The notes under the pieces: generated by a model | Seen by the model: the letters and a program-made list of their open reading frames with translations, nothing else | What the model was told of the DNA's origin: nothing | The model's database searches: none | Shown here: one piece after another, positions 30,865 to 45,000 of the stretch | How positions within the stretch are numbered: position 1 is the stretch's first letter | Layout: each line of letters opens with the position of its first letter | Assembly: GCA_017508135.1 (NCBI GenBank) | Contig: JAFVZN010000103.1 | Span: 1-64,000, forward strand | Source of the DNA: Lentisphaeria bacterium | Lineage (GTDB): Bacteria; Verrucomicrobiota; Lentisphaeria; Victivallales; Victivallaceae | Direction: 5' to 3' | Length of the DNA: 64,000 bases | Made by a program: the position numbers and the translations under genes

Positions 30865-30901
30865 ATAAAAGGTGAACACAACACTAAAAGGAAAAAAAAA
30901 G

Positions 30902-32047
30902 ATGTATACCCTTATCGAAAACGCCCATATCGTCTCCCCCGATCTTGATATCGCCAATGGTTCTCTGCTTATCAAAGATGATACCATAGTCAATGTAACT
31001 CCCGGCACCATCAATGCTCCGTCAGGCTCAAAAAAAATCGATGCCGCCGGAATGTTGACCGTTCCCGGCTTTATCGATCTCCACTGCCACGGCAGAAACA
31101 ACTTCGACTTCTGCGACGGAAACGCCGCCGGAACTGCTCTGATCGCAGAAAACAAACTTGCCGAAGGCGTGACCACTCTGCTTCCCACCACATTGACCGT
31201 CTCCGAAGAACAGCTGTCATCCGCCCTCGCCGCCTGCGCCGCTTACGATCAGAAAAGCGGATGCCGTATCCCGGGCGTCCATCTGGAAGGTCCGTATATC
31301 AATCCGAAGTGCGCCGGAGCCCAGAATCCCGCATTTGTCCGGCTTCCCGATGCGGCGGAAGTTGACCGCCTCAACGCGGTGTTTCCGGTAAAAAAGATCA
31401 CTTTCGCCGTGGAAATGGCTGGCGGGACCGCTTTCACTGCCGCCATGCTGGAACGGGGGATCACCCCCTCCTGTACGCACAGCGGTGCCAAGTATTCCGA
31501 TTTTGTTTCCGCCCATCAGGCGGGATTGCGCAACTTGTCGCATTTTTGCAATCAGATGACTCCGTTGCACCACCGGGATATCGGTCTGGTCGGTGCCGGA
31601 CTGCTCCACAGAGATGTCTTTGCTGAACTTATCTGCGACAAACTTCACATCGACCCGGCGATGATAAAACTGGTCTTCCAGACCAAGGGCGCAGAACATG
31701 TCATCCTGATCACCGATGCCATGCGTGCCGCCGGTATGCCCAACGGGGAATACGATCTGGGCGGACTTCCGGTGATCGTGGCGGACGGAGCGGCGAGATT
31801 GAAAGAGGGCGGCGCGCTTGCCGGAAGTACGCTTCAACTGGCGACCGCCTTCAAAAACGTGGTGGAAGTCACCGGTCTGCCGCTCAAAGAAGCGGTCAAA
31901 GCGACCTCGCTTTCAGCGGCATCATCCCTGAAACTTTCCGACCGGGGACGGCTGGAACCGGGATATCTTGCCGATATCACCATATTGGATGACACCTTCT
32001 CGGTCAGAAAAACTCTGGTCGGCGGCGAACTCCGGTTTGAAAAGTAA
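30902..32047 (+). CDS. nagA: N-acetylglucosamine-6-phosphate deacetylase, first copy
   Basis: The 381-residue amidohydrolase has GFIDLHCHG, the metal-ligand Glu in HLEGPYINPKC, CTHSGAKYS, NLSHFCNQMTPLHHR and the catalytic Asp in ILITDAMRAAGM. It removes acetate from GlcNAc-6-P. Compared with typical NagA (THLFNAM) the segment reads SHFCNQM, so it may prefer a related amino sugar. AAAGGA precedes the ATG. It forms an operon with the MFS carrier (21 bases apart) and faces the HexNAc kinase operon. Confidence 0.85.
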   Translation: MYTLIENAHIVSPDLDIANGSLLIKDDTIVNVTPGTINAPSGSKKIDAAGMLTVPGFIDLHCHGRNNFDFCDGNAAGTALIAENKLAEGVTTLLPTTLTVSEEQLSSALAACAAYDQKSGCRIPGVHLEGPYINPKCAGAQNPAFVRLPDAAEVDRLNAVFPVKKITFAVEMAGGTAFTAAMLERGITPSCTHSGAKYSDFVSAHQAGLRNLSHFCNQMTPLHHRDIGLVGAGLLHRDVFAELICDKLHIDPAMIKLVFQTKGAEHVILITDAMRAAGMPNGEYDLGGLPVIVADGAARLKEGGALAGSTLQLATAFKNVVEVTGLPLKEAVKATSLSAASSLKLSDRGRLEPGYLADITILDDTFSVRKTLVGGELRFEK

Positions 32048-33471: not shown

Positions 33472-34779
33472 ATGGCTAAAAATCTGAACGATTCCATCCA
33501 GATGGAAGTCAAAGATGCCGGAGTCTGTACCCGTGAATTCACCTTTTCCGTCAGTGCCGACACTGCCAAAAGCGAAAGTGCCAAAGTCCTGAACAACATC
33601 GCCGGAATGGTCCAGCTTCCCGGTTTCCGCGCCGGTAAGGCTCCCCTCGGCATGGTCAGCAAAAAGTACGCCGCCGAAATCGTCGAAGAACTCCGCAGCC
33701 GCTATCTCAGTGCCGCTGTCAGCAAGATCGAAAGCGATGATTCCCTCGATCTGCTCTCTTTGCGTATCAACAAAATGGACGAAATCAAGGTCAACGAGGC
33801 TTGCGAATTCGTCTTTGAAGCCGTCGTTTCTCCGGAATTCGATCTGGGCGATTACAGTGCCATCAAGCTGGACATTCCCGTTGATGCCGTCACCGAAGAT
33901 GCCGTCAAAGAACGCCTCGACCTCTACCGCAATATGTACGGAACCTACGCCGATGCCGATACCCCCGCGCAGAAGGAAGATATGCTCAAGGTCGACTACA
34001 AAGGCGACTTTGAAGTTGCCGAAGATGCTCCGGCTTCCCTGAAACGCCAGATCGAAGCTGCCGACAGCTTCATGTGGCTCAACGAACCCGAAAACATCCC
34101 CGGCTGCATCGCGGCTCTCACCGGTGCTGAAATCGGCAAAGAGTACACCTTCGCCGCCAACTATCCTGCCGACTACCGCGAAGAAGCACTTGCCGGCAAG
34201 AGTGTCAACTACACGGTCAAGGTCAATGCCATCCAGCGCCGCAAAGCGTTGACTGACGAAGAGCTGATCGCCCGTACCAACTCCGAATCCATGGAAAAAC
34301 TCACCGACAACATCCGCAAGAGCCTCGAAGGCGATGCCGAGCAGAAACGCCGTCAGGATGCGGTCGAAGCCTATTACAAGAAACTTGACGAAAGCATCGC
34401 CCAGTTCGATCTGCCCGCGCTGCTCGTCGACAGCGAGATCCAGAAGGCTCTGGAACGTCTCGCCCGCGAAACCGTCAAAGACGAAGCCGATGCCGAAAAG
34501 TTCAAAGCTGAACTCGACAACCATCGCAAAGCCGTCGAAGGTGATGCCCGTGCCGCCGTCCGCCGCCAGCTCATCCTCCGCAAGGCTGCGATCGCGGAAA
34601 AGGTCGAAGTTTCCGACAACGAACTCGACTTCCAGCTCAATATGATGAGCCGTTACTATGGCTTCAACGCCAAAGAGATGCGCACCACTCTGGAAAAGAA
34701 TGGCGGCATCGATGAACTGCGCTCCGATCTGATCAACGGCAAAGTTCTGGAGAAACTTGCAACTGCGGCTCTCAACTGA
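33472..34779 (+). CDS. tig: Trigger factor
   Basis: The 435-residue protein has the three-domain plan of trigger factor. The N-terminal ribosome-binding domain carries the signature GFRAGKAPLGMV; a PPIase-like FKBP domain (about 150-245) and a long helical C-terminal chaperone domain follow. It binds nascent chains at the ribosome exit. AGAAAGG precedes the ATG. It is first in the conserved tig-clpP-clpX order. Confidence 0.93.
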   Translation: MAKNLNDSIQMEVKDAGVCTREFTFSVSADTAKSESAKVLNNIAGMVQLPGFRAGKAPLGMVSKKYAAEIVEELRSRYLSAAVSKIESDDSLDLLSLRINKMDEIKVNEACEFVFEAVVSPEFDLGDYSAIKLDIPVDAVTEDAVKERLDLYRNMYGTYADADTPAQKEDMLKVDYKGDFEVAEDAPASLKRQIEAADSFMWLNEPENIPGCIAALTGAEIGKEYTFAANYPADYREEALAGKSVNYTVKVNAIQRRKALTDEELIARTNSESMEKLTDNIRKSLEGDAEQKRRQDAVEAYYKKLDESIAQFDLPALLVDSEIQKALERLARETVKDEADAEKFKAELDNHRKAVEGDARAAVRRQLILRKAAIAEKVEVSDNELDFQLNMMSRYYGFNAKEMRTTLEKNGGIDELRSDLINGKVLEKLATAALN

Positions 34780-34826: not shown

Positions 34827-34843
34827 AACAAATGGAGAAGAAC

Positions 34844-35458
34844 ATGACAGCTATCAAATCTTATCTGGTTCCGACGGTCATTGAACAGACCAGTCAGGGA
34901 GAACGTGCATTCGACATTTACAGCCGCCTCCTCAAAGATCGCATCATCCTGCTCGGTACGCCGATCGATGATGCCGTGGCTAATTTGGTCATTGCCCAGT
35001 TGCTCTTTTTGCAGGCGGAAGATCCGAAAAAGGATATCGAACTCTACATCAACAGTCCCGGCGGTTCCGTTACCGCGGGACTGGCGATCTACGACACCAT
35101 GCAGATCTTGTCCTGCGATGTCAAAACTTATTGTCTCGGACAGTGCGCCAGCATGGGGGCTGTCCTGCTTGCCGCCGGTGCCGCCGGTAAACGTTACGCC
35201 CTCCCCAACAGCCGGATAATGATCCACCAGCCCTGGGGCGGTGCGGAAGGTACTGCGGCAGACATCAGCATTCAGGCACAGGAGATCCTCCGTTTGAAAG
35301 CGATGCTCAACGGCATCCTTTCCAGCCACTCCGGTCAGCCGCTCAAGAAGATCGAAAAAGATACCGAACGCGACTTTTTCATGAGCGCGGAAGAAGCTGT
35401 GGAATACCGTCTGGTCGACAGTGTCATCCATCCGCAGAAGAAGAACTCCGGTAAGTAA
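34844..35458 (+). CDS. clpP: ATP-dependent Clp protease proteolytic subunit
   Basis: The 204-residue protein has the ClpP catalytic Ser103 ([12 protein letters not shown]) and His128 ([10 protein letters not shown]), with the Asp further on. It forms the tetradecameric protease core fed by ClpX. The start is the ATG preceded by GGAGAA; an ATG four codons earlier overlaps that ribosome-binding site. Confidence 0.95.
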
Positions 35459-35480
35459 ATACCAACAGAGTAAAGCTGAT

Positions 35481-36776
35481 ATGGCGAACAATAAAGATAA
35501 AATTCTGTGTGCATTTTGCGGACAGACTCCCAACTCCAGAAAGAAAGATCTCTTTTTCCTCCCCAGCATGTATGAGGGATTGAGCATCTGCACGGAGTGT
35601 CTGGAAAAGGCAAATTCGTTCCTCAACGATGCCGCCGAAACCAAAAATGCCCGCAAAGATGATGCGGCTGCCGCCTACATACGTTCTCTGAAAGTGCCGA
35701 CTCCGGTCGAGATAAAAGCGGAACTTGACCGCTGTGTCATCGGTCAGGAGTCTGCCAAAAAGGTTTTGTCCGTGGCAGTGCATAACCATTACCACCGCTT
35801 GAAGAGTCGTCTCTCCGGAATGGCGGATGCCCTCCCCGAAGAGCTTAAAGAAGTAAAACTTGACAAGAGCAACGTTCTGCTTCTCGGTCCTACCGGCAGC
35901 GGGAAAACCCTTCTGGCGCAAACGCTTGCCAATATGCTGGATGTTCCCTTTGCCATCGCAGATGCCACCACGCTGACCGAAGCCGGTTACGTCGGTGAAG
36001 ATGTGGAAAACATCCTGCTGCGGCTCTATCAGGCATCCGGAAACAATCTGGAACGCACCCAGATCGGTATTATTTACATTGACGAACTGGATAAGATTTC
36101 CCGTAAAGGTGAAAACGCCTCCATCACCCGCGACGTATCCGGCGAAGGTGTCCAGCAGGCTCTGCTGAAAATCCTGGAAGGTACTGTTGCCAACGTTCCG
36201 CCGCAGGGTGGACGCAAGCACCCCAATCAGGAATTTATCCATATCGATACCACCAACATCCTCTTTATCTGTGCCGGCGCGTTTGTCGGTCTGGATAAAC
36301 TGGTAAAACGGCGCAAAGGCAACCGGGTCCTCGGTTTCGACGATGCCGGAAAGGTCGAACTTCCGGAAGAGGACGAAAACCGTAATCCGCTCCTGGATTG
36401 CGAACCGGAAGATCTCGTCCACTTCGGTCTTATTCCGGAGCTGGTCGGACGTCTTCCCGTGATCTCTGCCCTCGATGCACTGGATAAAGATGCTTTGGTG
36501 CGGGTGTTGAGCGAACCGCGCAATGCCCTGACCAAACAATACCGCAAACTCCTTGCGTTGGAAAATGTTGATCTCGAATTCACTCCGGCGGCACTCGAAG
36601 CGATTGCCGAAAAAGCCGTCAAGCGCGGCACCGGAGCGCGCGGATTGCGCGCTCTGATGGAGGAATTGATGCTTGATGTCATGTTTGCCGCCCCCGCCGT
36701 AAAAGGCAAGGCGCGCTGTATCATCGGGGATGATGCCGTCCGTGGAGAAAACAAACCGCAGCTGGTCGAACTCTGA
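35481..36776 (+). CDS. clpX: ATP-dependent Clp protease ATP-binding subunit ClpX
   Basis: The 431-residue protein has an N-terminal C4 zinc domain (Cys10, Cys13, Cys37, Cys40), Walker [12 protein letters not shown], the pore-loop GYVGEDVE, Walker [11 protein letters not shown] and the C-terminal AAA lid ([15 protein letters not shown]). It unfolds substrates for ClpP. The gap to clpP is 22 bases; the ribosome-binding site is weak (AGAGTAAAG), consistent with coupling. Its last 47 bases overlap the kinase-like gene in another frame. Confidence 0.95.
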
Positions 36777-37839
36777 GCAGGATCTGCTGGAGCAGACGAT
36801 CATTATATCAGATGCCGGCAGCAAAGAGAGTGCCGCCGGCAGCGATGATGCGGTTTCAAACCTTCCGTTGAAATCGCAGGATCGGTATAAATTCATCCGC
36901 AGTATCGGTTTCGGCGGGATGAAAGGTGTGCTGCTGGTTCACGACAAGGACACCGGACGTGATATCGCCATGGCGATCATGCCGGATTTCCGCAACCGTC
37001 CCCGGCGGGACTTGAACCGTTTCGTCCGGGAAGCGCATATCACCGCCCAGCTGGAACACCCGAATATCGTGCCGGTACACGATATCGGTATCGATGGTTC
37101 CGGTTCGCCGTTTTTCACCATGAAGTATCTGCACGGTCAGACGATGGCGATGATATTGCGCCAGAAACACAGCGGCAAAGAAAGTGCATACACGCAAGAC
37201 AGACTGCTTCAGGTGTTGATCCGGGTCTGCAACGCTATCGCCTTCGCTCACAGCAAGGGGATTTGCCATCTGGATCTGAAACCTGCCAACATCCACTGCG
37301 GCGACTTCGGTGAAGTGCAGGTGCTGGACTGGGGACTTGCGGCGGCAAAGGATGATGATTTTGACAACGGACTGTTTCTGGGGACACCGGGATATATGTC
37401 GCCGGAATTTATCCGTTCCGCCGGAAAGGAACGTCCCGGTCCTGCGGCAGACATTTATGCTATCGGCGCCATACTTTATGCGATACTTGCCAACGACACG
37501 CCATTTTCCGGACTGCCGCAGCAGGAAATTTTGCGCCGCACAGTTGAAGGAAGGATCAAACCGCCATCCCATCGCGGCATCCACGTCGATCCCGGACTGG
37601 AAGCGGTGTGCATGAAGGCACTTGCCACCAAGCCGGAAGATCGTTATCAGAGCGTTATGGAACTGCGTAAAGAGATACTTGCCTGTATTGCCGGATTTCC
37701 CACGCAGGCGGAAAATCCTTCGGAATGGCGGCGCGCAACGCTTTATATCAAACGGCACTGGGCAGATATGATCATCGCACTGTTGGTGATTATCGTGGCG
37801 ATGCTGACATTCATTCTGCTGAAACACACCGGCGCATAA
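36730..37839 (+). CDS. Membrane-anchored Ser/Thr kinase-like protein lacking the usual ATP-binding lysine
   Basis: The 369-residue protein has an N-terminal tail of about 50 residues and a Hanks-type kinase domain with a glycine-rich loop (GFGGMKGV, 60-67). The beta-3 motif reads DIAMAIM, so Ala82 stands where VAIK has Lys. The alpha-C Glu (REAHI), HLDLKPAN (180-187), DWG (200-202) and GTPGYMSPE are present. One C-terminal membrane helix follows (about 346-364). The cytoplasmic domain with a C-terminal anchor resembles Planctomycetes PknB-like proteins. Activity is uncertain without the Lys. The start is ambiguous: ATG at 36730 or 36733, or a GTG just after. It is embedded in the clp operon and dxr follows after 12 bases. 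Confidence 0.8.
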
Positions 37840-37851
37840 AGGATTTCCGCA

Positions 37852-39006
37852 ATGACCAGAAATAATGTAGCTCTGCTGGGCGCGACCGGCTCTATCGGGC
37901 GCAGTGCGACCGCAGTTTTATCCTGTTGCAAAGAGCGTTTCAATGTGCCGCTGGTCGCGGCGCGTTCCAGTATCGACAAACTTGCCGGATGTGCCGGGCA
38001 GTTGGATGCCCAGATGGTGCTGACGACCGATGATACCAAACTTGACGAATTATCCTCACTTCTGCCGCCGGGGGTGCAGGCATTGTCCGGAATGGATGCG
38101 CTGATCGAAACCGTCACTTCGGATAAAATCGACACCGTGCTGTGTGCCATTATCGGCACTGCCGGAATACGTCCGGTACTGGCGGCAATCGAAGCGGGGA
38201 AAACGGTTGCACTTGCCAGCAAAGAGGTGATGGTTTCAGCTGGAGAACTGGTCAACGCCGCCTTGAAAGCCAATCCCCGGGCCCGGCTGATCCCGGTGGA
38301 CAGCGAACACTCAGGAGTTTTTCAGGCTCTTGCGGGGAGGCGGAAAGATGAAGTTGAAACCATAATACTGACCGCAAGCGGCGGCCCGTTCCGAACCTGG
38401 AGCGCGGAACAGATCGCCACTGCCACATTGGAAGAGGCCCTCGATCATCCGACCTGGAGCATGGGGCAAAAGATCACCATTGATTCAGCATCGATGATGA
38501 ATAAGGCACTGGAACTGGTCGAAGCGCGGTATCTGTTTGAAGATTATCATGCCAAACTTGATGTGCTTGTCCATCCGCAATCCGCAGTCCATGCGCTGAT
38601 CGGACTTACAGACGGGTCGCTGATCGCCCAGTGCGCCATTGCCGATATGAAACTGCCCATAGCCTACGCATTGACCTATCCGGAGCGGGTCGCGCTCCCG
38701 GTGGAGAAACTCTCTCTGGCGGCGATGGGGAAACTGGAATTTTCCGCCCCGGACCGGAAACGGTTCCCGGCATTTGATTTTGCCGATGCCGCACTTTCCG
38801 CAGGAGGCACACTGCCGTGCGCGATGAATGCGGCGAATGAAGTCGCCGTGGAACGCTTCTGCGCCGGAGAGATAACTTTCGGTTCCATCTATCGCATCAT
38901 CGAAAAAGTCATGTCCGCATGGCACAACGAGCCGCAAATATCTCTGGAACAGCTTGACGAAGCCGATGCCGAAGCGCGGCGCAGGGCGCGCGAGGTAAAA
39001 TTGTGA
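37852..39006 (+). CDS. dxr: 1-deoxy-D-xylulose 5-phosphate reductoisomerase
   Basis: The 384-residue protein has the NADPH-binding LLGATGSIG at the N-terminus, the metal/substrate motifs SKEVMVSAGE, PVDSEHSG, TASGGPFR and ITIDSASMMNKALE, and the C-terminal AANEVAVERF. It makes 2-C-methyl-D-erythritol 4-phosphate, the committed step of non-mevalonate isoprenoid synthesis. The stop overlaps the GTG start of the next gene. Confidence 0.95.
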   Translation: MTRNNVALLGATGSIGRSATAVLSCCKERFNVPLVAARSSIDKLAGCAGQLDAQMVLTTDDTKLDELSSLLPPGVQALSGMDALIETVTSDKIDTVLCAIIGTAGIRPVLAAIEAGKTVALASKEVMVSAGELVNAALKANPRARLIPVDSEHSGVFQALAGRRKDEVETIILTASGGPFRTWSAEQIATATLEEALDHPTWSMGQKITIDSASMMNKALELVEARYLFEDYHAKLDVLVHPQSAVHALIGLTDGSLIAQCAIADMKLPIAYALTYPERVALPVEKLSLAAMGKLEFSAPDRKRFPAFDFADAALSAGGTLPCAMNAANEVAVERFCAGEITFGSIYRIIEKVMSAWHNEPQISLEQLDEADAEARRRAREVKL

Positions 39007-41135: not shown

Positions 41136-41969
41136 CTACCTGATAACGGCACGCAAGCCGATGCCCGCAGGCAATACACGGCCGGTGGATTCCGGAATAA
41201 ACATTTCGCCGCCGTCGATATCACATTTTTTGCCGAAGACATCCGTAACCAGCCGGGACAACACCATCAGGGAAAATCCCGGCGAATGGCAGCTCAAGAC
41301 CAACGTGAAAGGTTTATCCGGCTTCCGGAGCTGACGGCACAGATCAAGAAGTTTCGGCAGATCGGTTTCGATCTTCCACAACTGACCGGACGGTCCGCGG
41401 CCGAAGGTCGGCGGGTCAAGTGCGATCAGATCATATTTGGAGTTGCGGCGCAGTTCGCGCTGGCAGAAACGGTTGACATCTTCAGCTATCCACCGCACAG
41501 CATCGGGGATATCGGGATTGAGGGAATGATTCTCTCTGCCCCATTCGATCATACCGCGCGCGGCATCGATGTGGCACACTTTCGCCCCGCCCGCTGCCAT
41601 GGCGAGCGACCCCAAACCGGAGTAAGCAAAGAGGTTGAGCGCATCCATATTGCGGCAATTCTGCCGGAAATATTCCCAGTTGCGGAACTGTTCCGCAAAA
41701 AATCCCAGATGACCGAAACTTGTCGGCTTGATCTTTATCGTCATCTTGCCGAGAATACAGTTCCAAGTTTCCGGCAGTGCTTCGCGGTTGCGCCAGCGGC
41801 CGTTACCGGAACTGTCACGAACAAACTCCGAAACGGCGGCTTTCCATTCGCTCTCCGGCAGTGCCGGTTTCCAGAACGCATTCAACGCCGGCCGGATGAT
41901 CCGGTAAGGACCGACCTGCTCAAGTTTTTTCAAATTTCCGCTGTCGAGCAGAATATATTCATTTTTCAT
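41136..41969 (-). CDS. Class I SAM-dependent RNA methyltransferase, RlmI/RlmK-like
   Basis: The 277-residue protein has the Rossmann SAM site LNLFAYSGLGSLAMAAGGAKVCHID and motif IV DLIALDPPTFGRG, typical of the COG1092 group that methylates 23S rRNA. It is shorter than RlmI and lacks an N-terminal PUA domain. KIKPTSFGHLGFF corresponds to the segment preceding the SAM fold. The ATG overlaps the TGA of the second nagA (TGATG), so the pair is coupled. It ends in TAG. Confidence 0.75.
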   Translation of the reverse strand: MKNEYILLDSGNLKKLEQVGPYRIIRPALNAFWKPALPESEWKAAVSEFVRDSSGNGRWRNREALPETWNCILGKMTIKIKPTSFGHLGFFAEQFRNWEYFRQNCRNMDALNLFAYSGLGSLAMAAGGAKVCHIDAARGMIEWGRENHSLNPDIPDAVRWIAEDVNRFCQRELRRNSKYDLIALDPPTFGRGPSGQLWKIETDLPKLLDLCRQLRKPDKPFTLVLSCHSPGFSLMVLSRLVTDVFGKKCDIDGGEMFIPESTGRVLPAGIGLRAVIR

Positions 41970-43159
41970 CAGCACTTCTCCGCATGATAGATAATTTCGC
42001 CCCGCCGCACCGTCAGCAACGGGCGGTTACTGCCAAGTTCAAATACCGCAAGATCGGCACGCCGCCCGGGGAGCAGTATGCCCCGGTCGTCAAATCCGAA
42101 GTGACGCGCCGGGTTGAAGGTCACGGCTCCGGCGGCACGGGTTTCGGAAAGATGGCCGCTGGACATCAAACTGTGCCAGCCGGAATCAAGCATGGTCGTG
42201 GTTCCGGCAAGTTTTCCTTCCGGATTCTGCGAAAAGCCGCCGACCACCCGGATCGCGGACGGACCGATGCAGTAATCTCCATCCGGCATACCCGATGCCA
42301 TCGTACAATCGCTGATACCGATAAGCTGATGTTCCGGCTTACAGCGGCACGCCAGATCGACCATACGCGGATGAACATGGCGGCCGTCAATGATGAGTTC
42401 CACGGTAACACGGTCATCGGTCAGTGCCATACCGGCAAGTCCGACCTGCCGCTGGTGCAATGGTTCCATACCGTTGAACAAATGCGTACAGTGCGTGGAA
42501 CCGGCTTCGATCGCCCGCAACGTCTGTTTATTGTCAGCAAGGCTGTGGCCCATGGAGGCGATAACACCGTTTTCTTTGAGCAATGTTATCAACTTTTCCG
42601 CGCCGGAAAGCTCCGGAGCGAAGGTCATTATCTTTACCAGTCCGTCACCGGCGGCAATAAGTTCCTGAGCAAAAACGGTGTCGATCTCGCTCAACACCTC
42701 GCGCGGCTGTGACCCGGAACGCTTCGGATTGAGAAAGGGGCCTTCGATATTGATGGCAATGGCATCAGCTCCGGGAAGCGGCGCGCGCATAGCTTTCGCA
42801 AGTGCGGCAAGGTTTTCCAGCATCACCTCTTTGCGGTCAGCAACGACGGTGGGGAAAAATCCGGTGACACCACGCTCGCCCAGAATACGGCTCATCGCGG
42901 CAAGGTCACGCGGCGAAGTTTCACAACGGGAACAATCACACCCGCCGGCACCGTGGATGTGGGTATCCAGAAATCCGGGCGCAATATAAGCCTTTTCAAA
43001 ACCAAAAAATTCTATCTCCGGTTCAACGGAGAATCCGGACAATCCGCCGACACCGATGATACGCTCATTTTCACACAACACCGCGCCGTGAGGTATCACC
43101 CGGTCCGGAGTGATAAGATAATCTGCGACATAAAGTCGACGTATCCGCTTTTTTTCCAT
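41969..43159 (-). CDS. nagA: N-acetylglucosamine-6-phosphate deacetylase, second copy
   Basis: The 396-residue amidohydrolase has PGFLDTHIHGAGGCDC, the metal Glu in NIEGPFLNPKRSG, GHSLADNKQT, CTHLFNGMEPLHQR and the catalytic Asp of IGISDCTMASG. It is a more canonical NagA than the copy at 30902-32047. The start is the ATG preceded by AGGAAAG; the frame stays open 77 codons upstream, but the promoter at 43194-43222 lies inside that extension. Two copies suggest different amino-sugar substrates or different regulation. Confidence 0.85.
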   Translation of the reverse strand: MEKKRIRRLYVADYLITPDRVIPHGAVLCENERIIGVGGLSGFSVEPEIEFFGFEKAYIAPGFLDTHIHGAGGCDCSRCETSPRDLAAMSRILGERGVTGFFPTVVADRKEVMLENLAALAKAMRAPLPGADAIAINIEGPFLNPKRSGSQPREVLSEIDTVFAQELIAAGDGLVKIMTFAPELSGAEKLITLLKENGVIASMGHSLADNKQTLRAIEAGSTHCTHLFNGMEPLHQRQVGLAGMALTDDRVTVELIIDGRHVHPRMVDLACRCKPEHQLIGISDCTMASGMPDGDYCIGPSAIRVVGGFSQNPEGKLAGTTTMLDSGWHSLMSSGHLSETRAAGAVTFNPARHFGFDDRGILLPGRRADLAVFELGSNRPLLTVRRGEIIYHAEKC

Positions 43160-43193
43160 CTTAAGCACACTTTCCTTTTTTGCAGCGAAATAA

Positions 43194-43222
43194 AATATAT
43201 CGCCATTACGGCATATTTTCAA
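43194..43222 (-). promoter_or_regulatory. Promoter of the second nagA
   Basis: On the minus strand, TTGAAA (43222-43217), a 17-bp spacer, TATATT (43199-43194). It supports the start at 43159. Confidence 0.7.
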
Positions 43223-43380
43223 GCTCAGCACGGGTACACGCGCGATATTTTTCTCTCTCACTCTTAATAAGGAGCGATGACGCAGGGAAAGGGAAGTATC
43301 AAACTCCCGGGCTGTTATCAAACAGTGCTTTGCTCGGCACACAACGTTGAACGCGATCGGCGGATGCAGTTTCCGGTGTC

Positions 43381-45000
43381 TCACTCCCACGGGACATAAA
43401 GGAAGTAGTCATTCCCCATATATTGTGCCGAAAATATTGCGCTGTACCGTTCCACTTCCAGCGGGCGGCAGCTGAGTACCACCGGACGCCGCTGACGGAT
43501 AAATTCCATTACCGCATGGTCATGATCTTGATACAGACCATTTTTCATCACCAGAAACTGCTTGTGCCGGAACCCGGCATCCGGCAGCAGAACACTCCAC
43601 ATGCCATCTTCCGTATAATTCAGCACGCCGCGCGCTTTTATCCCTTCCGGCAACTGTTCGACACACCGCCGGAACGCATCAATGACCGCCGCCTCGGCAC
43701 GGGAAAATTTTATTCCGCGCACACCGGGGATATCCAGCATCTTCCGCTTGCCGGATCCAAAAAAACGGATATAACCGCTCCGCAAACGCGGCAGCGTACA
43801 TCCCACCCACAAAAGCAGCAGCACACCGGCTCCGATACGGCACCAGAGCTTGTTTCTGCCGCGATTTTTCAACAACTGTTCCACCGTCAGAATATAAAAT
43901 CCCATAAACGGCACACCACCCCAGAATATATGCCGCACACACGGTACCGGATAATACTGGTGCCATGCGCCAAGCGCAAATATCCCACAACACAGCAATA
44001 TCAAATCCCGTTCCGCCGCACTGCCGTTTTTGTGCATCACACTGCGCGCACATTTATACAGCCACGGCAGTACCACTATCGGCATGATGCCGAATATCGA
44101 ATCAAAGAAACCATTATCAGTAAGGAACGGACACAGCGATGCGGCAAAATATCGCCACTGGCCCTCTTTGCCGCCGGTACCGCGCGCTCCGACAAAGTCA
44201 AACACATAGCTCACACACTGGAAAACAAAATCATCCCACGCACCGCACACCAGCAGCAATATTCCGACACTGCCGACAACAAGGAGAAAGCCGCCAAGCG
44301 TGATCGCGCTGTCCGTAAAAAATTTCTTCACTGCCGCAAAACGGCTTTTTTCAGTACCGCTTTTTACAAATATCGTTCCCAACACCGCGATCAACGTCAC
44401 CACACCGACCGGATGCCGGGAGAGAAAAGTCAATCCCGCCGCCACACCTGCACCAAAGAGCCAATACCATCGGGTAGACTTCAGATATTTGATTTCACTC
44501 CACAATGCCAGCAGCGAAAAAAAGAGAGCAAATATACTGCTCCACGGGTGGAAAGTCACCATCAGATCCGGCATCAGCGAGAAGATCATCACCAGCATCA
44601 GATCCCGCCACCGCGCCGACAGGACCTCCTGCCAGATTATATCCATCATCACGACACTTCCGGCATAAAACAGCACGGAAAAATATTTCATAATCAACAA
44701 TTCGCCGCCGCCCAGACGTAACGCCAATCCCTGCAATACCGGGGAAAGAAAACCGTACTGGCAAAAGACATCGCGGAACACCATTCCGCCCTCAGCAACT
44801 CTCAATGCGGGGATCATCATCACGCCGTCATGGTGAAGATCTATCCCCAGCGGTGCAAACGCACCGAACCACAACAGCGCACACAAAAATATTATACTTC
44901 TCCGGCACAATACCGGCAGCAGACCGGGAACGGTGGAGGGGGATTCTGCCGTAACTGTTAACTCCGCAACAGGATGAAATTTTTTCTTTGCGGCACTCAC
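43381..45000 (-). CDS. Polytopic membrane protein, GT-C-like
   Basis: The 539-residue protein has about eleven membrane helices and a C-terminal soluble domain of about 130 residues. The first external loop reads LHHDGVMMIPALRVAEGG and FRDVFCQYGFLSP, the pattern of uncharacterised GT-C family membrane glycosyltransferases. The start is uncertain: GTG at 45000 is chosen, with TTG at 45006 possible, and neither has a good ribosome-binding site, which suggests coupling to plsX. The acceptor and donor are unknown. Confidence 0.65.
   Translation of the reverse strand: MSAAKKKFHPVAELTVTAESPSTVPGLLPVLCRRSIIFLCALLWFGAFAPLGIDLHHDGVMMIPALRVAEGGMVFRDVFCQYGFLSPVLQGLALRLGGGELLIMKYFSVLFYAGSVVMMDIIWQEVLSARWRDLMLVMIFSLMPDLMVTFHPWSSIFALFFSLLALWSEIKYLKSTRWYWLFGAGVAAGLTFLSRHPVGVVTLIAVLGTIFVKSGTEKSRFAAVKKFFTDSAITLGGFLLVVGSVGILLLVCGAWDDFVFQCVSYVFDFVGARGTGGKEGQWRYFAASLCPFLTDNGFFDSIFGIMPIVVLPWLYKCARSVMHKNGSAAERDLILLCCGIFALGAWHQYYPVPCVRHIFWGGVPFMGFYILTVEQLLKNRGRNKLWCRIGAGVLLLLWVGCTLPRLRSGYIRFFGSGKRKMLDIPGVRGIKFSRAEAAVIDAFRRCVEQLPEGIKARGVLNYTEDGMWSVLLPDAGFRHKQFLVMKNGLYQDHDHAVMEFIRQRRPVVLSCRPLEVERYSAIFSAQYMGNDYFLYVPWE

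Follow-up and report, generated by a model that had tools for sequence, protein, structure and literature searches.

The window analyzed here, a 64,000-nucleotide stretch of a contig from a Lentisphaeria bacterium (JAFVZN010000103.1), carries directly behind clpX a gene for a serine/threonine kinase without the β3 lysine. Very probably, its product is a Hanks-type kinase that can carry out catalysis and whose phosphate-binding lysine has moved from position 72 to position 55 (PKA numbering), a change invented in PVC bacteria independently of the WNK kinases. Judged from its sequence and those of its relatives, the gene is real and conserved, and probably encodes an active enzyme. Mutating the β3 lysine is a common way of inactivating a kinase, and its absence is commonly taken as the sign of a dead one; motif rules would count kinases with Lys at 55 and Ala at 72 (K55/A72) as pseudokinases. 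The lysine move known from WNK appears to have taken place in a large bacterial clade as well; in 2007 Kannan and colleagues presented WNK as the only functional ePK family lacking the β3 lysine (PMC1821047). The clade offers a second, independent case in which to ask why kinases move this lysine.

Gene and Genomic Context

The kinase domain of the window protein is a full PF00069 domain (E 7.4e-37; 127.6 bits vs. a curated cut-off of 31.7). A preliminary description of this DNA had placed the gene in an overlap of 47 bases with clpX and close in front of dxr, and the ORF coordinates agree: the overlap runs to the clpX stop at 36776 if the first ATG (36730) is the start, and dxr starts 12 bases past the kinase stop (Table 1). 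A GTG at 36742, 20 bases past the start of an upstream GGGGA stretch region, is a possible alternative start and would reduce the overlap to 35 bases. Among the 16 loci L006-L021, 13 have an in-frame GTG equally far from the clpX stop and 1 more has an ATG there; the more distant loci do not. The listed GTG start of clpX itself overlaps clpP; comparison with the homologue L404 makes the ATG at 35481 the likelier start. Scanning the operon for promoters and terminators gave results near shuffled expectation and was uninformative. Two ORFs flanking the operon (30872-32047, plus strand; 41969-43390, minus strand) look, from their translations, like N-acetylglucosamine-6-phosphate deacetylases.

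Table 1. Features of the kinase gene and its neighbors, in window coordinates.
Feature	Position	Strand	Remark
K55/A72 (WNK-like) serine/threonine kinase, C-tail-anchored, 369 aa (P0001)	36730..37839	+	activity and tail anchoring predicted
Gly-rich loop G-F-G-G-M-K, residues 60-65	36907..36924	+	
Lys65 codon	36922-36924	+	PKA position 55, relocated lysine
β3 strand I-A-M-A-I-M, residues 79-84	36964..36981	+	
Ala82 codon	36973-36975	+	PKA position 72, normally Lys
αC Glu101	37030..37032	+	PKA E91, invariant in alignment
Catalytic loop HLDLKPAN, residues 180-187	37267..37290	+	D182 = PKA D166; Leu for HRD Arg
DWG metal-binding motif, D200-W201-G202	37327..37335	+	
C-terminal hydrophobic helix, residues 344-368	37759..37833	+	read as membrane tail anchor
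N-terminal T-I-I-I segment, residues 23-26	36796..36807	+	possible phosphothreonine/FHA docking motif (speculative)
clpX	35421..36776	+	directly upstream, overlapping kinase gene
clpP	34832..35458	+	name from translation; matched in relatives
tig, trigger factor	33472..34779	+	name from preliminary description and translation
dxr	37852..39006	+	downstream neighbor, only in closest relatives

Active Site of the Window Kinase

In place of the expected VAIK the window kinase reads DIAMAIM, and both HLDLKPAN and DWG are present in the translation. The preliminary description was thus right that Ala stands where the β3 lysine is expected and that the HxDLKPAN and DxG elements are kept. Ala82 occupies the β3 lysine site (PKA K72) and Lys65, in the Gly-rich loop GFGGMK, falls at PKA position 55. 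The phmmer alignment to PknB is ungapped from β1 through β3 and pairs Lys65 with a Ser and Ala82 with the Lys of AVKVL. At the DNA level, the pattern GGMK-x11-R-x-[I/V]-A-[ML]-A has 1 match in the window and none in 100 shuffles, so the feature does not arise by chance. The residues equivalent to E91, D166, N171 and D184 are all in register. The AlphaFold2 model (pLDDT 91.8, pTM 0.90, 93 aligned sequences) aligns with PknB (1mru_A) over 262 residues with an rmsd of 1.8 and a Z of 32.2; the predicted structure is a standard kinase fold.

In WNK, catalysis depends on K55, which makes the ATP contact otherwise made by K72 (PMC1821047). In the proposed mechanism, Lys65 would project into the pocket and bind the phosphates of ATP, probably pairing with Glu101, and D182, N187 and D200 would carry out the usual chemistry.

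Lysine 55 and Lysine 72 in PVC Kinases

A kinase profile built from 14 domains of both types allowed 336 hits from 341 loci to be aligned, giving 303 distinct domains, 288 of which cover positions 55, 72 and 166. In this alignment, a check that the preliminary description had proposed, Ala is found at the β3 lysine position in 221 of the 288 domains, all with Lys at 55, a class inflated because many of the domains come from loci picked by the K55/A72 pattern. Another 66 domains have K72, with G (53), S (8) or A (5) at position 55, and 1 has K55 with Val at 72 (L336, from Lentisphaera marina). Neither the combination of both lysines nor the loss of both occurs among the 288 domains, at a profile threshold (1e-8) under which strongly degraded kinases may be missed.

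Because the pattern-picked loci inflate one class, a fair count comes from six kinomes collected blind to the motif. These contain 79 K55/A72 domains, 63 K72 domains and the 1 K55/V72 domain, again with no domain bearing both lysines or neither, apart from 10 hits that do not include both columns; 1 match (L281) lacked a profile hit and 2 weak matches lie outside the count. The window's own genome (72.65% complete) has 1 K55/A72 and 4 K72 domains. Three other genomes also have a single K55/A72 domain, next to 9 (G040, 2 not covered), 10 (G043) and 5 (G051, 1 not covered) K72 domains. The K55/A72 type makes up over half of the covered domains in Lentisphaera marina (52 of 85, with 32 K72 and 7 not covered, counted from 90 loci of 98 kinase matches) and in Pontiella sulfatireligans (23 of 26, with 3 K72). 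The 98 kinase matches of Lentisphaera marina (G100) occur in a 5.3-Mb genome, and 53 of its 85 covered domains have Lys at 55.

In Rubritalea profundi, 1 K55/A72 domain is found with 9 K72 domains that have G or S at 55, 1 K72 domain with position 55 uncovered and 2 domains covering neither position. The 17 domains in the 16 top-scoring loci of Rhodopirellula rubra (81 matches) are all K72, its two K55/A72 pattern matches lying outside those 16 loci.

Conservation and Probable Catalytic Competence

Across the 221 K55/A72 domains, G52, E91, H164, D166 and K168 are kept without exception, and N171, D184 and G186 in 220, the remaining one being a gap. The C-lobe is also retained, with P207 in 216, E208 in 215 and D220 in 213 domains. 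At other motif positions, Leu or Phe replaces the HRD arginine in 214 of the 221 domains, with Arg still present in 3, and Trp replaces the DFG phenylalanine in 218 of 221; the residue after the Gly of DWG is Leu in 225 of 254. Among 162 distinct matches to the DNA pattern, the Lys codon is AAA in 98 and AAG in 64 and the Ala uses all four codons; only silent change is shown by this variation, since the pattern itself fixes the amino acids. Taken as a set of sequences, the family reads as one with selected active-site residues and not as one in decay.

The preliminary description had proposed a pseudokinase or an atypical kinase. On the pseudokinase account, loss of the β3 lysine ends catalysis and the protein would serve the Clp machinery as a scaffold; K72 is indeed absent, simple motif rules would give that label, and a C-terminal TM helix is known from the bacterial pseudokinases ActPs3 and GLW (PMC12599244). 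However, a compensating lysine in the pocket, which the same description had named as an observation that would speak against it, is found in the invariant Lys65, and together with the intact catalytic set it leaves this account unsupported. It is dismissed as the main reading and considered very unlikely. Kinases of the same superphylum that are degenerate look different: in Rubritalea profundi, three G55/R72 kinases lack E91 and carry Ala at the catalytic Asp position. These three (L393, L397 and L399) make stronger candidates for genuine pseudokinases than does the window gene.

A further possibility is that ATP is bound via Lys65 but serves allosteric switching or a reaction other than protein phosphorylation. 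The nucleotide-pocket elements are kept, and the kinase fold has precedents in AMPylation by SelO and glutamylation by SidJ (sections of PMC12599244). Against this, HxDLKPxN and DWG are in canonical register with the C-lobe PE and D220, and the model is that of a standard kinase fold, which makes the proposal highly improbable. A protein kinase with a relocated lysine is the preferred reading. Its regulation would be unlike that of WNK and PknB, because the catalytic loop has HLD or HFD and the activation segment of the window protein (P0001) contains no Ser/Thr between DWG and GTPGY.

Relation to WNK and Other Kinases

The window kinase and WNK have three things in common: the β3 lysine is gone, the Gly-rich loop supplies a Lys at PKA position 55, and the other catalytic residues are kept (PMC1821047). 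The differences are several. The β3 position is Cys in WNK (PMC12599244) and Ala here; WNK has the HRD arginine (R348 in WNK1) where the window kinase has HLD; and the window kinase, in contrast to WNK, is predicted to be C-tail-anchored. In WNK1, chloride binding uses the leucines of the DLG site (PMC5346417), and the L369F mutant is listed as chloride-insensitive (PMC13397483). Here the motif is DWG, with Trp at the first Leu position in 218 of 221 domains, so WNK-style chloride sensing is a weakened candidate. The leading matches to the window kinase, in sequence and in structure, are bacterial PknB. No WNK occurs among the best 60 of the 2155 and 296 matches of the sequence searches, nor in the best 50 structural matches of Foldseek or of VIA-align; when the N-lobe was searched against the PDB to find WNK, the matches listed were led by bacterial and calcium-regulated kinases. 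With DWG, HLD and PknB as the leading solved relatives among the matches listed, the window kinase is WNK-like in the swap but not a WNK.

PknB is the best match in sequence (E 4.1e-43) as well as in structure. The kinase domain of PknB and StkP is membrane-anchored, and the same is predicted for the window kinase. Unlike the window kinase, PknB has the β3 Lys and HRD; the window protein has no sizeable part past its C-terminal helix. The K72 paralogues of PVC bacteria (for example L005, L064, L067, L309 and L311) differ in having G, S or A at 55 together with K72 and branch near the K55 group; two of them (L005 and L064) share the N-lobe sequences FIREARITA..HPN and YFTMK with the K55 kinases.

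A shift of positive charge from 72 to 55 is also described for CAK-chloro, of the choline/aminoglycoside-type kinases, in part of PMC1821047. This is a different kinase family, with R55 and Met72 and with E91 replaced by Phe, whereas K55/A72 kinases keep E91. The 2025 review of bacterial pseudokinases deals with seven families out of 42 and, in the portion available, uses WNK as a eukaryotic comparison in four places and includes no K55/A72 family (PMC12599244). Of the families described in that portion, ActPs1-3, GLW, DLHK, CP1 and DYD lack or often lack the β3 Lys and some have a C-terminal TM helix; unlike the window kinase, they show degraded catalytic or metal motifs or Arg or bulky replacements. 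A literature search found no bacterial WNK-like family among the papers listed, and the 2025 bacterial kinase atlas (Sci Signal) could list one under another name.

Distribution and Origin

Scanning genome contigs with the DNA pattern gave at least 119 stretches. Among the matches listed, 108 lie in kinase domains recognized by the profile, from Lentisphaerota (63), Verrucomicrobiota (18), Kiritimatiellota (16), Planctomycetota (9) and unnamed (2). The other 11 comprise 4 that resemble kinase loops and are ended by a stop or by the contig end (L123, L159, L168, L184) and 7 that are unrelated. In the window's phylum 69 of 288 genomes match, and a reversed control pattern has 0 matches; in the phylum of Rhodopirellula rubra 2 of 149 genomes match, one being Rhodopirellula rubra itself. 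These counts are lower bounds, as the pattern misses codon or residue variants such as L073 and L074. The impression, voiced in the preliminary description, that similar AMA-type kinases occur in PVC bacteria is borne out for several of the phyla, with a patchy reach into planctomycetes.

A quick tree of 154 domains, with columns 55 and 72 removed, has many weak forks. On this tree the K55/K72 state changes 2 times, vs. a shuffled mean of 48.8, and none of 500 shuffles is as low. The K55 domains form one group, apart from L286 of Lentisphaera marina, a G55/K72 kinase with HRD whose position inside the group has support 80; this placement possibly reflects a reversal, an intermediate or a misplacement. 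The two changes on the tree suggest that the swap arose essentially once among PVC bacteria. K72 kinases of the same bacteria branch beside the K55 group (L311, L309 and L218, then the group of L005, L064 and L067), which places the invention inside the PVC kinases. As far as can be told from a tree of PVC domains with no eukaryotic or WNK sequence in it, the origin of K55 appears to be independent of WNK.

Linkage to clpX

In the window's taxonomic family (Victivallaceae), clpX adjoins the kinase in 55 of 56 K55 loci (30 of 30 and 25 of 26, the exception being L068; the K72 paralogues L064 and L067 were left out of the count), and the linkage holds down to about 42% identity. Among K55 loci from other families of the order, 0 of 12 have clpX in their flanks. 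Proceeding from clpX outward, over flanks of about 1.5 kb (less at contig ends), a kinase is found at 18 of 18 loci of the window's family and at 0 of 12 loci of the other families. The gene order after clpX, which the preliminary description had proposed to compare, is thus kept within one family and absent elsewhere in the order; among the loci examined only this family has the linkage, and a PVC-wide linkage is ruled out. So is a link to dxr, which follows in 16 of 30 loci of one set and in 0 of 40 of a second. Of 48 genomes of the family, 45 have exactly 1 pattern match and 3 have none. In two members, G035 and G049, clpX is present, its flanks contain no kinase and the genome gives no pattern match; no clpX was found in G008 and G018 at the threshold used, and G018, which lies outside the set scanned with the pattern, has no close kinase hit.

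A kinase encoded behind tig-clpP-clpX would, in the window's family, probably phosphorylate something in that circuit. Coupling to Clp proteolysis, raised in the preliminary description, is plausible as a guess from gene order. The linkage may instead be inherited gene order only, with the kinase unrelated to Clp, an explanation compatible with the relocated lysine and not far short of an even chance. It is favored by the restriction to one family, by the two genomes with clpX but without the kinase, and by loci whose first in-frame start is as much as about 120 bases past clpX. Against it, clpX is retained down to about 42% identity while dxr is not, and nearly every genome of the family has exactly one match. 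In several loci, moreover, candidate starts overlap the clpX stop by 4 or 1 bases, an arrangement that would suit translational coupling, and the two genes may be co-transcribed. Position 388 of ClpX is Thr or Ser in 18 of 18 linked and in 1 of 10 readable unlinked proteins (2 unlinked ClpX unread); T388 as a phosphosite was discarded, this contrast between families being fully confounded with phylogeny.

Predicted Membrane Anchoring and Terminal Segments

In 54 of the 55 linked orthologues the C-terminus contains a strongly hydrophobic stretch with 0-21 residues after it, and 1 is cut by the contig end. Measured from the most hydrophobic 19-residue stretch, the 54 readable proteins likewise have at most 21 residues beyond, and PASTA-type extracellular sensor domains after the TM helix are absent from them. 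Basic residues commonly precede the stretch. The protein is therefore probably tail-anchored, its kinase domain lying in the cytosol and no sensor domain outside; the C-terminal helix would hold it on the inner membrane. The sensing of envelope signals suggested in the preliminary description fits poorly with a single TM helix at the very C-terminus and few residues beyond. A broader scenario combines a clade-wide, independent invention of the WNK-type active site with a new use of the pocket vacated by the lysine (Ala72, DWG, HLD), which would sense a small ligand or the ionic or osmotic state, one branch having become a dedicated membrane-tethered ClpXP switch in the window's family; this is unlikely.

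At the other end of the protein, a T-x-[VIL]-[VILM] motif, defined post hoc, occurs near the N-terminus in 36 of the 55 linked proteins vs. 8.1 expected from shuffles, and the window's genome has two FHA-domain matches. Speculatively, the motif is a candidate phosphothreonine/FHA docking site. A different architecture is seen in L040:4752-7832, an unlinked K55 kinase of 1026 aa that belongs to a different family within the order; a leucine-rich-repeat match (PF12799) follows its kinase domain.
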